Virus record (IMG/VR): IMGVR_UViG_3300034082_000892
Span: 1-27,557 of that record
DNA: 27,557 bases
DNA from: a virus
Strand: one strand, 5' to 3'
In this document: piece by piece, positions 520 through 23,374 of the stretch
Layout of the letters: every line of letters begins with the position of its first letter
How positions within the stretch are numbered: position 1 is the stretch's first letter
Made by a program: the position numbers and the translations under genes
The notes under the pieces: generated by a model
Told to the model about the DNA's origin: nothing
Seen by the model: only the letters and a program-made list of their open reading frames with translations
The model's database searches: none

Positions 520-639
520 TGTGGTAGGCCCTGCAACACGGTGGACATTACGAACGCCTTTGTCTAAATGGTCCATTCCCCACTATGCTCCACTTCACTC
601 CACCCAAACCATATATAAAAAATATCAGTAAGATTTATC

Positions 640-690
640 TGTGGATAACTATAGCAAATCTGTGGATAACTCATCTCATATTGTGGATAA
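640..690 (+). other. Three phased DnaA boxes (putative origin core)
   Basis: TGTGGATAA, the complement of the consensus DnaA box TTATCCACA, occurs perfectly at 640-648, 661-669 and 682-690, all in one orientation and exactly 21 bp apart, two helical turns. A degenerate copy, TGTGTACAA, follows at 694-702. The 30 bp to the left (609-638) are almost all A/T, which fits a DNA unwinding element. Host DnaA would be expected to bind as an array on one face of the helix. This may be a phage origin using host DnaA, or a DnaA-titrating site. Confidence 0.75.
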
Positions 691-719
691 ACCTGTGTAC
701 AACTCTATGGTCCATAGGG

Positions 720-725
720 TATAAT
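720..725 (+). promoter_or_regulatory. -10 hexamer placed for a leaderless mRNA
   Basis: TATAAT is followed by exactly 6 nt and then the ATG at 732, so the predicted transcription start coincides with the A of the start codon. There is no convincing -35 at the matching distance. Confidence 0.5.
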
Positions 726-731
726 TGCTAT

Positions 732-824
732 ATGAAACTATTCTTTATATTGCTCTTAGGTCTATTTGCATTCTTAAACCTTATGGCATATCTCCAGCAA
801 TTAAGATGGGCTAACTATGGTTAA
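732..824 (+). CDS. Small membrane protein, 30 aa
   Basis: This frame could open earlier, at 585, but that part translates the DnaA boxes. I place the start at 732 because a -10 hexamer lies 6 nt upstream, as at eight other genes in this window. The product begins MKLFF and is one hydrophobic helix followed by a short polar tail. It overlaps the next gene by 8 nt. Function is unknown. Confidence 0.45.
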   Translation: MKLFFILLLGLFAFLNLMAYLQQLRWANYG

Positions 825-945: not shown

Positions 946-1052
946 ACCAGGGGATAAATAACTCTCTGGGGTTGTTCTGGCTATGGGGCATATGGGGCTT
1001 ATATCTTATACTAGGGATTACGATCACACTTTAAATCCCCCGATTTTTCTGG

Positions 1053-4404: not shown

Positions 4405-4849
4405 TTACTTTAAAAAGTTATGGTCAACCATCTTATCAAACGGTGTTCGCCAAGACTCTGAGGGTAACTGGAATGTTATAAACTCTTCTACCAATAAGCG
4501 TAGAATGGAAGGTAAAGGCTCTAGTGTAGGTGGTGTATCTGGTCCTAATCAACATCAATGGATCCCCGCCAAAATTTATGTAACACCAGATGAACTAAAA
4601 GAGATTTGGGATAGACAACTTGGCAAATGCTACTGGTTTGGTGTAGACTTAGACTTAGAACTACTCTATAAGTCACACCCTGATTGGATGCCAAAGCACC
4701 CTATGTGTCCTAGCATAGATAAGATTGATGTTAATGGAGATTATACAAAAGAGAATATTGTTATCACAACTAGGTTTGCTAACTTTGGCAGAAATGTTTG
4801 TGACTTTGACAAGTTCCACGATATAGTGAGGGTTTTAAAAAATGCATAA
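4394..4849 (+). CDS. HNH-like endonuclease, 151 aa
   Basis: The core GKCYWFGVDL, then PSIDKIDVNGDYTKENIV, then TTRFANFGR follows the order of phage HNH-type nucleases in which the central Asp/Asn-rich segment after a beta hairpin binds the metal. The first His of the classical motif is replaced by Asp (SIDKID), as in several phage-homing variants. The N-terminal 50 residues are polar and may bind DNA. A role in genome processing or as a homing enzyme cannot be told apart; there is no intron nearby. Confidence 0.65.
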   Translation: MSRDYFKKLWSTILSNGVRQDSEGNWNVINSSTNKRRMEGKGSSVGGVSGPNQHQWIPAKIYVTPDELKEIWDRQLGKCYWFGVDLDLELLYKSHPDWMPKHPMCPSIDKIDVNGDYTKENIVITTRFANFGRNVCDFDKFHDIVRVLKNA

Positions 4850-5306
4850 TGCAGTTATATTTGATGTTGATGGCACTCTAGCAAATGTTGAGCCTTACCT
4901 ACACCACATCAGGAATATACACAATACTCCTGACTTTAAAAAGGATTACGATAAGTTTCACTCTGAATCAGTTAATGCTGAACCAAATCAAGAAGTAGTT
5001 GAGATGGTTAATCAAACTTTCTTTGATCAGAATCATGTTATCGTTGTTACTTCTCGTAATGAATACTGGCGGGGCATTACCTCATATTGGCTAGCAAAAA
5101 ATGATATTGGACACCACGCTTTGTATATGCGTAAAGATGGTGACTTTAGACCTGACTATGAAGTAAAGAGTGAGATCCTTGCTAAGATTAAGAAGCAGTG
5201 GAATGTCATTCATGCTATTGATGATAATCCAGCAGTATTAAAGTTATGGTTTGAGCACGGCATATCAACTACAAAAATTGGCGATTGGGATGGAAGTAGA
5301 GACTAA
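4842..5306 (+). CDS. HAD-superfamily phosphatase, 154 aa
   Basis: It carries the HAD motifs: DVDGT with the nucleophile Asp8 and acid/base Asp10, motif II VTSR (about residue 70), a conserved Lys near 107, and motif III DDNP (about residue 127). Size and motif spacing fit the 3'-phosphatase domain of T4-type polynucleotide kinase/phosphatase, without the kinase domain. It may remove 3'-phosphates from nicked nucleic acid, or act on nucleotides. It overlaps the HNH gene by 8 nt, so cleavage and end-repair activities may be coupled, which is inference. Confidence 0.8.
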   Translation: MHNAVIFDVDGTLANVEPYLHHIRNIHNTPDFKKDYDKFHSESVNAEPNQEVVEMVNQTFFDQNHVIVVTSRNEYWRGITSYWLAKNDIGHHALYMRKDGDFRPDYEVKSEILAKIKKQWNVIHAIDDNPAVLKLWFEHGISTTKIGDWDGSRD

Positions 5307-5906: not shown

Positions 5907-6168
5907 TCCAAATCAAACCTCTGCTCGTGGCGACTGGCTCTGTCCTTGTAGTGGATGTTCAAAGTCTATTGCAGCAGAACGCAAACAACTGATTGAATTA
6001 TTTGAAAAACATAAGTATGACTACTTAGTTTATCGTGGTTCATCATTTGATCAGGATGGTAATTTAATGTGGGCTAAAGATGATACTGAAGCATATGCTG
6101 AGGGCATTGATGAAGTTATTAAGTTGATTAAAGAAAGAATGCTCAAGCCTAAAATTAAGCACCAGTAG
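5899..6168 (+). CDS. Cys-rich hypothetical protein, 89 aa
   Basis: It starts at GTG 5899 within the end of the previous gene. CPCSGC near residues 15-20 is followed by a long helix and a YLVYRG segment, resembling small actinophage proteins that carry GDWLCPCxGCxKS. The last 10 nt overlap the 5' end of the tRNA gene that follows, so the transcript could be cleaved within the coding region when the tRNA is processed. Confidence 0.6.
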   Translation: MADPNQTSARGDWLCPCSGCSKSIAAERKQLIELFEKHKYDYLVYRGSSFDQDGNLMWAKDDTEAYAEGIDEVIKLIKERMLKPKIKHQ

Positions 6169-6232
6169 CCAAGTTGGTTAAGGCACCGAACTCATAATTC
6201 GGCTATCGTAGGTTCAAGTCCTACCTGGTGTA
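6159..6232 (+). tRNA. tRNA with CAT anticodon (Met or Ile2)
   Basis: All four arms fold: acceptor GCACCAG/CTGGTGT, D stem GCC/GGC, anticodon stem CCGAA/TTCGG with loop CTCATAA, T stem GTAGG/CCTAC with loop TTCAAGT. The first pair is G-U and there is no C-A mismatch as in initiators, so it is an elongator Met or, if lysidine-modified, Ile2. The 3' CCA is not encoded. Confidence 0.85.
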
Positions 6233-6236
6233 CTAA

Positions 6237-6308
6237 ATCTCTGTAACTCAGCGGAAGAGTGACACCCTTCTAAGGTGTAGGTCGTAGGTTCAAATCCTAC
6301 CAGAGATG
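6237..6308 (+). tRNA. tRNA-Arg (TCT)
   Basis: Acceptor ATCTCTG/CAGAGAT, D stem ACTC/GAGT, anticodon stem ACACC/GGTGT with loop CTTCTAA (anticodon TCT), T stem GTAGG/CCTAC. It reads AGA/AGG, codons frequent in this AT-rich genome and likely rarer in the host. The CCA is not encoded. It is 4 nt after the preceding tRNA. Confidence 0.9.
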
Positions 6309-6309
6309 C

Positions 6310-10996: not shown

Positions 10997-12024
10997 CATT
11001 TGGAATAATTGCAAGATGCGATAATACTGGATTAGGAAATCAAACAAGGGATTTAGTTAAAATGTTAAATCCAGATAGGATTCTCCTAATTAACTCTGCA
11101 AAATTTAATAACAATAAGCAATATCCTGAGTGGTATGAAGGATATAACGTAACAATGACCAATGGCTTTCCAACCAAGCAAGAGGTTGCTATATTTATGG
11201 ATGGATTAAATTCTGTTTTAACCTGTGAAACTTTCTACCACCCACACTTTATTAATTTGGCCCAAAGGCGTAAGGTCAAAACCTTAATGCAGTATAACTA
11301 TGAGTTTCTTGATCATCTAAATAAACCAGATATGCCTTTGCCAACCTATATGATTTCTCCTAGTTACTGGAAGATAGATGAGGTTATTAGTAAGTTTAGT
11401 AATGATACGACTGTTGTTCATATACCGCCGCCAATTGACTCAGAAGAGTTTGCCACTGTTAGAAATAATAATCTTGCAAAAGATCATAAAAGAATCCTAC
11501 ATATTGGCGGAAAGGTTGCTTCCAAAGATAGAAACGGTACTCAAACTGTAATTGATATGCTCAGACATTCCAAGGCTGACTATGAGTTAGTTATTCGGAG
11601 CCAAAGCGAACTTAATATTAATTGCCAAGACTCCAGGCTCACTGTTGAAATAGGCAATGTTGATAGCAGGTCTTCAATGTATGATGGTTTTGATGCTATG
11701 GTTCTTCCAAGAAGGTATGCTGGTCTTTGTCTACCAATGAATGAAGCCCTTATGAGTGGCCTTCCAGTTTTTATGACTGATATATCCCCAAATAATCAGG
11801 TGCTTCCAAAAGATTGGCTAATACCATCAAGCAAAATTACTACACTTATGACAAGAGTTAAACTAGATGTATATGATGCTGATGTTAGAGAACTTGGCAA
11901 AAGGATTGATAAGTATGTTAACAGTGATAAGAAAGAACAAAAAGAAAAGGCTGCAACGATTGGATTTGAAAACTTTGACCCATCTATTCTAAGGGATCAA
12001 TACCTTCAGATTCTGGAAGGATAA
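10993..12024 (+). CDS. GT-B glycosyltransferase (GT1/GT4-like), 343 aa
   Basis: I set the start at GTG 10993, giving a GTGA overlap with the previous gene; a TTG at 10978 would add five residues. It begins TFGIIARCDNTGLGNQTRDLV, resembling GT4 proteins whose N-terminus has a glycine-rich GLGxQ turn. The C-terminal half carries KRILHIGGK, then AMVLPRRYAGLCLPMNEALM, a GT4-style E-x7-E donor motif, then SGLPVFMTDI. Its last 41 nt overlap the convergent minus-strand gene. Confidence 0.8.
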   Translation: MTFGIIARCDNTGLGNQTRDLVKMLNPDRILLINSAKFNNNKQYPEWYEGYNVTMTNGFPTKQEVAIFMDGLNSVLTCETFYHPHFINLAQRRKVKTLMQYNYEFLDHLNKPDMPLPTYMISPSYWKIDEVISKFSNDTTVVHIPPPIDSEEFATVRNNNLAKDHKRILHIGGKVASKDRNGTQTVIDMLRHSKADYELVIRSQSELNINCQDSRLTVEIGNVDSRSSMYDGFDAMVLPRRYAGLCLPMNEALMSGLPVFMTDISPNNQVLPKDWLIPSSKITTLMTRVKLDVYDADVRELGKRIDKYVNSDKKEQKEKAATIGFENFDPSILRDQYLQILEG

Positions 12025-13833: not shown

Positions 13834-14118
13834 TTATTTGTCCGTTGTTAAAATTTGCCACGTATCTGCCCAGTCTGCTTTAGTTTTGTGATTATTAAAT
13901 TCTCTAGATATTTTACCATCTTCAAGGTATACACCAGCCCAAACTCCCCACTCTTTACCAGATACGCCGTTAGCAAAACATTTTCTTGCTAATGGACACT
14001 GCATGCACAAGGCATCAACTAAAAATCTAGAATCTGGCTCATCTTCATATTTATCAAAAAAGATATTAGTATCAAGGTCTTTGCACGGAGCATCGTCTTT
14101 CCATAGATGCTGCTTCAT
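13834..14118 (-). CDS. WhiB-family iron-sulfur regulator, 94 aa
   Basis: Four conserved cysteines stand at 12, 38, 41 and 47, in the WhiB order C-x(n)-C-x2-C-x5-C that holds a [4Fe-4S] cluster, followed by the WhiB signature WGVWAGVYL (about residues 57-65) and a basic tail (HKTKADW). WhiB proteins bind region 4 of the host primary sigma factor and adjust transcription. They are known only from actinobacteria and their phages, where phage copies interfere with host WhiB-controlled genes. This gene is the strongest host marker in the window. Promoter redirection during infection is an inference. Confidence 0.9.
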   Translation of the reverse strand: MKQHLWKDDAPCKDLDTNIFFDKYEDEPDSRFLVDALCMQCPLARKCFANGVSGKEWGVWAGVYLEDGKISREFNNHKTKADWADTWQILTTDK

Positions 14119-16519: not shown

Positions 16520-16849
16520 TTACTTTGCTAGAACTCTCTTTATCTCATTTAGACACTCTAGGGACTCTATGCTCATTTTTGATAATTCTTCTGGAATGAA
16601 TGCCTTGTGTGTTAGATTGACCATAGGGTTCTCATCTAGCAAATCAACAGTAACAAAGCCATCTTCCCAAAGACCCATTATCTGGTGGTTTACCTGGTTA
16701 AGATGTTCCTGATAAACTTCAGGCATGATTTCAATCATCTTTTCTGTCATTGAATATAAAAATTCACCTGATATAGGGTCAAGACCTATAACCTCAATTG
16801 CTCCATTTAAAATGAGCATATCAAAAATATCAGTATAGTCTTCACTCAT
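16520..16849 (-). CDS. Acidic hypothetical protein, 109 aa
   Basis: Strongly acidic and predicted largely helical, with MLILNGAIEVIGLDPISGEFLYS at the start and two helices rich in Glu, Met and Leu after it. In its N-terminal half the pattern resembles small phage proteins of unknown function that read 'xxxLxxxGaiExxGvDxxTGEfxYs'. It overlaps the thioredoxin gene by 8 nt. Confidence 0.55.
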   Translation of the reverse strand: MSEDYTDIFDMLILNGAIEVIGLDPISGEFLYSMTEKMIEIMPEVYQEHLNQVNHQIMGLWEDGFVTVDLLDENPMVNLTHKAFIPEELSKMSIESLECLNEIKRVLAK

Positions 16850-17099
16850 TGTTCATTAACCCTAACAGTTGATCCTTTGTCTGTGCTCCAGAGAGTCTTT
16901 TTATCTCTTTGCCATCTTCAATAAGAATAAATGTAGGAATTGACCTGACCTCAAATGATTTTACGAGATCAACTTCAGAGTCAGCGTCAACGATTTGAAA
17001 CCTTATATCAGCCGATTCACGATTAAGTTCTTCAACAATTGGCCTTACCTTCTTGCATGGGTTACACCACTCAGCAGTAAAGTAAAGAATGTGTCTCAC
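16842..17099 (-). CDS. Thioredoxin-like protein, 85 aa
   Basis: The active-site motif is WCNPC (Cys12, Cys15), followed by a long helix and the cis-proline SIPTF near residue 55, both in the right places. It is shorter than bacterial thioredoxin by about 20 residues, lacking the first strand-helix. It starts at GTG in a GTGA overlap. It may reduce disulfides for host-type ribonucleotide reductase or for protein folding. CNPC instead of CGPC should shift its redox potential. Confidence 0.85.
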   Translation of the reverse strand: MRHILYFTAEWCNPCKKVRPIVEELNRESADIRFQIVDADSEVDLVKSFEVRSIPTFILIEDGKEIKRLSGAQTKDQLLGLMNNE

Positions 17100-20623: not shown

Positions 20624-21040
20624 CTACTTGATTTTGATAGACTTAGGCTTTTTATCTTCAGGAATAATGCGATCTACATTGATATGTAGCATGCCATCCT
20701 TTAGTTCAGCCGAAGATACTTCCATATATTCACCCAGTGCAAATGATCGTGTAAACTTACGACTTGCAATGCCTTTGTGAACTACTTCTGCATCTGTGAC
20801 TTCTACAATTTCACCCTTAATAATAAGAGTACCATTGTCTATTGACACATCAATATCATTCTTGCTAAATCCTGCTACTGCAATAGACAGTCTATACGTA
20901 TCTTCATCTAGTTTCAGAAGATCGTATGGAGGATATGATGTTGTATTTGTTTTATGTGCTGTATTAAGACGACCCAACTCTCTGTTGAATCCAATAAAAA
21001 AAGGATCATTGAATAGATCCATTGCGAACTGTGTTACCAT
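20624..21040 (-). CDS. Hsp20 small heat-shock protein, 138 aa
   Basis: An alpha-crystallin domain of full length: LLKLDEDTYRLSIAVAGFSKND, then LIIKGEI, then RSFALGEYMEVSSAELKDGML, close to the IbpA type. The C-terminal SIKIK supplies the I-x-I motif that holds the oligomer. Phage Hsp20 proteins are known from cyanophages; here it may protect or help assemble virion proteins. AAAGGGG precedes the ATG at 9 nt. Confidence 0.85.
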   Translation of the reverse strand: MVTQFAMDLFNDPFFIGFNRELGRLNTAHKTNTTSYPPYDLLKLDEDTYRLSIAVAGFSKNDIDVSIDNGTLIIKGEIVEVTDAEVVHKGIASRKFTRSFALGEYMEVSSAELKDGMLHINVDRIIPEDKKPKSIKIK

Positions 21041-23146: not shown

Positions 23147-23220
23147 TGGAGCGGATAGCGGGAATCAAACCCGCACATTAACCTTGGCAAGGTTACGCAC
23201 TATCACTATGCAATATCCGC
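23147..23220 (-). tRNA. tRNA-Gly (GCC)
   Basis: Acceptor GCGGATA/TATCCGC, anticodon stem TAACC/GGTTA with loop TTGCCAA (anticodon GCC), T stem GCGGG/CCCGC, discriminator T as usual for glycine. CCA is encoded (23149-23147). It reads GGC and GGT and stands just before two very glycine-rich genes. Confidence 0.9.
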
Positions 23221-23224
23221 ATTG

Positions 23225-23297
23225 TGTCTCCAACGGGATTTGAACCCGTGTTATTGCCGTGAAAGGGCAACGTCCTAGGCCCCTAGACGATGGAGAC
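23225..23297 (-). tRNA. tRNA-Glu (TTC)
   Basis: Acceptor GTCTCCA/TGGAGAC, anticodon stem TTGCC/GGCAA with loop CTTTCAC (anticodon TTC), T stem ACGGG/CCCGT. Discriminator A. CCA is not encoded. Confidence 0.9.
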
Positions 23298-23298
23298 T

Positions 23299-23374
23299 TG
23301 GCTGGTCTGGTAGGCCTCGATCCTACGACTTGCGAATTAACAGTTCGCCACTCTACCAACTGAGTTACAGACCA
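23299..23374 (-). tRNA. tRNA-Asn (GTT)
   Basis: Acceptor TGGTCTG/CAGACCA, anticodon stem GCGAA/TTCGC with loop CTGTTAA (anticodon GTT), T stem GTAGG/CCTAC. Discriminator G and an encoded CCA (23301-23299). It is the first tRNA of the minus-strand array. Confidence 0.9.

Follow-up and report, generated by a model that had tools for sequence, protein, structure and literature searches.

DnaA-assisted origins are already known from P1, from plasmids and from bacterial oriC. In P1 and other plasmids, the origin unites DnaA sites with AT-rich DNA and phased iterons, and P1 can be opened by DnaA alone (PMC5043065), while the basal unwinding system (BUS) is searched for with a rule that looks for NAN DnaA-trios near a DnaA box (PMC8287927). 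Among phages, a Pseudomonas phage is predicted to have a putative origin that contains DnaA boxes (PMC11512268), and the injection stop signal of T5 has been described as consisting of repeats, palindromes and DnaA boxes (PMC13250531). In the open-access literature, we found no description of how the replication start site is chosen in large actinobacteriophages that have a replisome of their own. What appears to be new in the locus described here is a conserved, single-copy module of the DnaA-origin kind in a large and widespread group of such actinobacteriophages.

Results

The window analysed here (i.e., the whole stretch of 27,557 bases) is an entire virus record and probably a fragment of a larger genome, so that just 639 bp lie between its left edge and the first DnaA box. 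Its plus strand carries three perfect DnaA boxes TGTGGATAA (640–648, 661–669 and 682–690, by sequence match) at the exact 21-bp spacing that the first-pass annotation had claimed, and no other perfect copy occurs in the window. The AT-rich tract to their left and the degenerate fourth copy, which had been pointed out as well, were both confirmed, the latter reading TGTGTACAA (694–702, plus strand) and overlapping a possible –35 element. An order-2 Markov null of the window (1,500 simulations) produced a mean of 0.43 perfect boxes, and a 21-bp box pair or three boxes within 60 bp arose in 0/1,500 simulations. Since no simulation reproduced the arrangement, a random origin of the three-box array is excluded. 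As in origins of the oriC/BUS type, the locus thus holds a cluster of high-affinity DnaA boxes.

The box array turned out to form the right-hand portion of a larger conserved module (578–702). The originally proposed range of 609–702 does hold the boxes and the AT-rich tract, but omits three tandem 10-bp units, CCCCACTATG, CTCCACTTCA and CTCCACCCAA, which were read from the sequence and make up the left edge of the module (578–607, plus strand). From left to right, the module is composed of these three CTCCACT-type units, an AT-rich tract containing the nearly invariant ATCAGTAASAT, and the phased DnaA boxes. The tract (609–639, plus strand), proposed to be a DNA-unwinding element, adjoins the boxes, and its least stable 30-mer, starting at 611, ranks within the least stable 0.07% of all 30-mers of the window.

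Within the tract, the core ATCAGTAAGAT (624–634, plus strand), delimited by its conservation in viral spacers, contains the trios CAG-TAA-GAT (CAG-TAA-SAT in relatives) at 5 nt from the first box, which fit the NAN DnaA-trio rule. At least three NAN trios are thus present within 16 bp of a box, although this rule is loose in AT-rich DNA. The trio consensus 3′-GAT-5′ (TAG) is not matched, the trios reading CAG, TAA and GAT or CAT; because the trio motif is described as degenerate (PMC8287927), we take TAG as a typical rather than a strict feature. Among the matches listed, 21 non-redundant spacers display a period-3 A pattern that is clear just over the three core trios and weak further left. 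Given this weakness further left and the permissiveness of the rule in AT-rich DNA, the fit to the BUS is consistent with such a system and no proof of it.

Conservation in related phages had been proposed as a check, and the region proved to be strongly conserved there. The sequence ATCAGTAAGATTTATC is common to relatives left of the boxes, and its pattern matches 93 stretches, corresponding to at least 69 distinct viral sequences. Circularity was avoided by querying with the CTCCACTTNNCTCCAC block further left, followed by a DnaA box, with the spacer left free; this arrangement was found in at least 120 viral stretches. Among the matches listed, most positions of ATCAGTAASAT are 97–100% conserved in 65 distinct spacers, the core not having been selected for, while in the 21 non-redundant spacers 9/11 core positions are conserved at 0.81–0.95, with the first A at 0.71 and the ninth position being mixed G/C. 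All ten long relatives (63–117 kb) contain the module exactly once per genome. Annotated phage records yielded no near match of the module beyond short DnaA-box similarity.

A hand count of the full-length family contigs among the matches listed revealed that 14/38 terminate at most 1 kb to the left of the module and 2/38 at most 1 kb to its right. The ends on the left may be due to a genome end, to the boundary of a terminal repeat or to variation between strains.

Scanning viral contigs for three DnaA boxes at any spacing retrieved at least 80 loci. Among these listed loci, box spacings peak at 11–12, 21–23 and 32–34 bp, and phasing near 10.5–11 bp is strong, also for spacings of at least 15 bp (n = 130, approximate p < 1e-11, with repeated spacing patterns removed before the statistic). 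Helical phasing is therefore general in viral DnaA-box clusters, which makes 21 bp one choice among several. The exact 21+21 arrangement occurs in 56 viral stretches, including close relatives that carry the left flank of the window (L014, L025, L036, L037 and L049), and in many relatives of the module the first box pair is 11–12 bp apart. Of the two-turn phased array suggested earlier, the canonical and helically phased DnaA boxes in an actinobacteriophage hold, but the exact 21 bp is not special, other phased spacings being used as well. Phased DnaA-box arrays, mostly unannotated, were also observed in Lactococcus 949-like phages, Klebsiella podoviruses, Enterobacter phage phiEap-1, T5-like phages and gokushoviruses.

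The module is surrounded by short repeats. A region rich in GGTTTG-type and ATTACGAT/TCGTAA-type repeats (83–520, from counts against the rest of the window) lies to the left, and a repeat scan located a further ATTACGATC repeat to the right of the boxes (1017–1025, plus strand). Within 1.2 kb of the boxes, the window has 18 copies of GGTTTG and 11 of TCGTAA, where 1.8 and 0.5, respectively, are expected from the rest of the window. In 8/10 relatives GGTTTG is found 9–25 times within 1.2 kb of the module (ca. 2 expected), in a cluster at or next to the densest of the genome; this cluster is absent near the module in relatives G007 and G008. TCGTAA is enriched over the same distance in 10/10 relatives. 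Both repeats could be candidate iterons.

On the other side of the boxes, a TATAAT (720–725, plus strand; read from the sequence and similar in relatives) may be the –10 element of a leaderless promoter, followed by an ORF of 30 amino acids, probably a membrane protein, with its ATG at 732 (732–824, plus strand). A similar –10 with a close ATG comes after the boxes in a number of relatives. A longer frame across the boxes (585–824) has no family match and is probably not a gene. Since the boxes are followed by a –10 and a nearby start codon, host DnaA on the array could instead regulate the leaderless gene at ca. 732 and so couple phage expression to the DnaA level. The degenerate box over the –35 position and the recurrence of the promoter-like sequence would suit such control, and DnaA is known as a transcription regulator (PMC11317965). 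However, the first downstream gene is mostly not common to the relatives, which argues against a gene-specific regulatory site, and the conserved left half of the module would be unnecessary for a promoter site. We therefore consider a DnaA-controlled promoter quite unlikely.

As overall GC skew tracks gene direction, whole-genome GC skew was rejected as an origin test and the silent sites of same-strand genes were used. The silent-site skew of plus-strand genes is –0.03 to –0.17 in 2-kb bins over the 12 kb left of the module versus +0.11 to +0.13 over the 6 kb to its right. The same-strand right-minus-left difference is above zero in 10/10 relatives (negligibly so in one), with a mean of 0.178 at the module versus 0.022 at breakpoints placed randomly in the opposite-strand run. 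The P of ca. 5e-5 for this shift assumes independent genomes, which these relatives are not, and in single genomes the shift is mostly not exceptional. Furthermore, gene content is more conserved left of the module than right of it, a contrast that possibly confounds the comparison, and two Streptomyces phages that were tested had no skew step. A GC-skew switch had been put forward as a check, and the outcome is mixed: same-strand silent sites do shift at the module, but opposite-strand genes to its right also have positive silent-site skew, where a simple bidirectional leading/lagging model predicts otherwise.

Regarding gene content, DnaA (PF00308) was found in 0/15 relatives, while the positive controls matched in 13/14 control genomes, and a phage-encoded DnaA was rejected on this basis. 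G006, a circular relative of 101,516 bp, has genes for a DnaE-type polymerase, a DnaB-type helicase, a DnaG-type primase and RecA, next to ribonucleotide reductase, head, portal and terminase genes. Of 16 records searched, 10 had a DnaB-type helicase, in one case below the cut-off. The polymerases of G006 and of Streptomyces phage BillNye (Stanwilliamsviridae) share 56% identity, and with its homologous DnaE polymerase and similar gene order G006 is Stanwilliamsviridae-like. The window fragment is without these polymerase-type genes and is tied to the group through the module and through a WhiB-like gene (13834–14118, minus strand; Pfam PF02467, 39.9 bits), an actinobacteriophage marker that is syntenic with the relatives.

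Other genes seen in the window include those for a PNKP-type phosphatase (4842–5306, plus strand), a thioredoxin-like protein (16842–17099, minus strand) and an Hsp20 small heat-shock protein (20624–21040, minus strand), as well as tRNA clusters at 6159–6309 (Met, Arg) and 23147–23374 (Gly, Glu, Asn). In 9/10 long relatives, an acidic protein of ca. 90 residues with the motif ND[LIV]GL[PS]L is encoded 0.8–1.7 kb upstream of the module (11259–11534 in G006). This 91-aa protein was rejected as an initiator, being acidic, without a useful family match and without the WhiB cysteine pattern. No Rep family match was found among the scanned small upstream genes of G006.

WhiB is encoded by 13/15 relatives and, as in the window, lies roughly 10–20 kb downstream of the module on the opposite strand in several of them. 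Since most relatives encode WhiB, their hosts are actinobacteria. WhiB and the freshwater actinophage literature (PMC10202952) point to the order Nanopelagicales as the putative host, and members of this order, going by size and GC, are presumably included among the small candidate host genomes. These small actinobacterial genomes (1.0–1.5 Mb) have dnaA regions/oriC with the perfect DnaA box of the module, and many of these dnaA regions have, next to AT-rich DNA, a TAGTAGTAGTAA tract, which reads CTACTACTA on the opposite strand. Phage module and candidate host oriC are alike in layout, with the unwinding tract left of TGTGGATAA, but different in sequence. The phage core plus box had no match in genome_contigs, and a looser core pattern gave one isolated match in 394 class genomes, so that the module was rejected as a copy of a host oriC.

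In cultured Streptomyces phages of the Stanwilliamsviridae, DnaA-box clusters occur in a comparable setting. In BillNye, a 1.3-kb stretch whose annotation consists of just two small ORFs on the reverse strand holds boxes at 119428, 119441, 119452 and 119707, the first of them overlapped by one of these ORFs. Blueeyedbeauty has two boxes (123482 and 123737) in a 1.5-kb gap, and LilMartin four (ca. 121.19–121.28 kb) in a 1.4-kb gap. Like the module, these stretches are mostly non-coding DNA in the right arm with a DnaA-box cluster and TCGTAA repeats; unlike in the module, box orientation is mixed in BillNye and LilMartin. Neither the ATCAGTAASAT core nor CTCCACT units were seen in the three phages. 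We found no open-access report on DnaA boxes in these phages, nor one describing the box stretch as an origin.

The main rival to an origin is a control of DNA entry like the T5 injection stop signal, in which repeats and host DnaA near the genome end would pause entry after the first genes. As in that signal, the DnaA boxes of the module are set in non-coding DNA with numerous short repeats, and the terminal repeat of T5-like phage Stitch contains a box, degenerate boxes and repeats. LilMartin has a terminal repeat of 11,126 bp, and its four boxes (MT684590.1, ca. 121191–121345) lie outside this repeat, 63–154 bp from the left edge of the right copy; because they adjoin the repeat, this explanation gains some weight. 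Family contigs among the matches listed often end just left of the module, which would also suit it. However, the distance to the terminal repeat varies, the boxes of BillNye and Blueeyedbeauty being ca. 5–6 kb away and thus not adjoining it, and a roadblock needs no conserved AT-rich tract of the unwinding type with trios. In further contrast to the module, the T5 signal is inside the terminal repeat in Stitch, has no matching AT-rich trio element described, and is unrelated in sequence. An entry stop thus seems unlikely to us, though not negligible.

Discussion

We think it fairly probable, on the strength of its sequence and conservation, that the module (578–702) is a replication origin, or the core of one, opened by host DnaA. 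This reading is supported by the fact that no fewer than 69 distinct viral sequences contain the module, with one copy per genome in ten long relatives, by a core that is conserved though not selected for in the search, and by a least stable tract that adjoins the boxes in the orientation seen in candidate host oriCs. Further support comes from the lack of DnaA in 15 relatives together with the phage replisome genes of G006, from the position of the module in a short-repeat cluster, with a box cluster kept in the Streptomyces relatives, and from the precedent of P1 and plasmid origins (PMC5043065). The positive skew of opposite-strand genes on the right and the missing step in two Streptomyces phages speak against it, as do the deviation of the trios from the 3′-GAT-5′ consensus and the presence of DnaA boxes in the DNA-entry region of T5-like phages.

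Compared with a bacterial oriC carrying a BUS, the module has the same perfect boxes beside an AT-rich tract, NAN trios and the orientation of the candidate host oriCs, but its relatives have no dnaA gene, CAG-TAA-GAT takes the place of TAG repeats, and the spacer is 5 nt. With P1 and the iteron origins of F, RK2 and R6K it shares DnaA sites, an AT-rich tract, short repeats and helical phasing (PMC5043065), the repeats being putative initiator sites as in P1; unlike for those origins, no Rep initiator was recognised among the small upstream genes scanned in G006, and the phages carry their own replisome set.

We infer that DnaA binding, tract melting and replication start take place at the module. 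Host DnaA would bind the helically phased boxes (640–690), and its oligomer would extend leftward onto one strand of the AT-rich tract, aided by the CAG-TAA-GAT trios. The tract would then melt, and the phage DnaB-type helicase, primase and DnaE polymerase would take over. A phage protein that assists opening or sets its timing may bind to the GGTTTG and TCGTAA repeats.

The boxes could alternatively act as a sink that titrates host DnaA and blocks new rounds of host replication. They are of the high-affinity consensus, and the many phage copies late in infection could presumably bind much DnaA. Nevertheless, each genome has one module with few boxes, and a sink has no need of a fixed AT-rich element and orientation, which makes this explanation very improbable. 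The earlier suggestion that such titration halts the host cell cycle found no specific support, and some titration of DnaA is possible as a side effect of the module.

Returning to an origin opened by host DnaA, the conservation of so compact a module in many related viruses suggests that these viruses, although they have their own copying enzymes, probably borrow host DnaA to initiate replication of their DNA. A wider proposal, which we advance only tentatively, is that a widespread group of large actinobacteriophages, from those of lake actinobacteria to those of Streptomyces, which encode a polymerase, helicase and primase of their own, nonetheless use a chromosome-type origin that is opened by host DnaA, has a phage-specific trio element and iterons of its own, and is tied to host initiation control. 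The cultured Streptomyces relatives make the origin question testable in the laboratory. If host DnaA does open the module, infection would depend on the cell-cycle initiator of the host, and the module would provide a sequence handle for origins in many uncultured phages.
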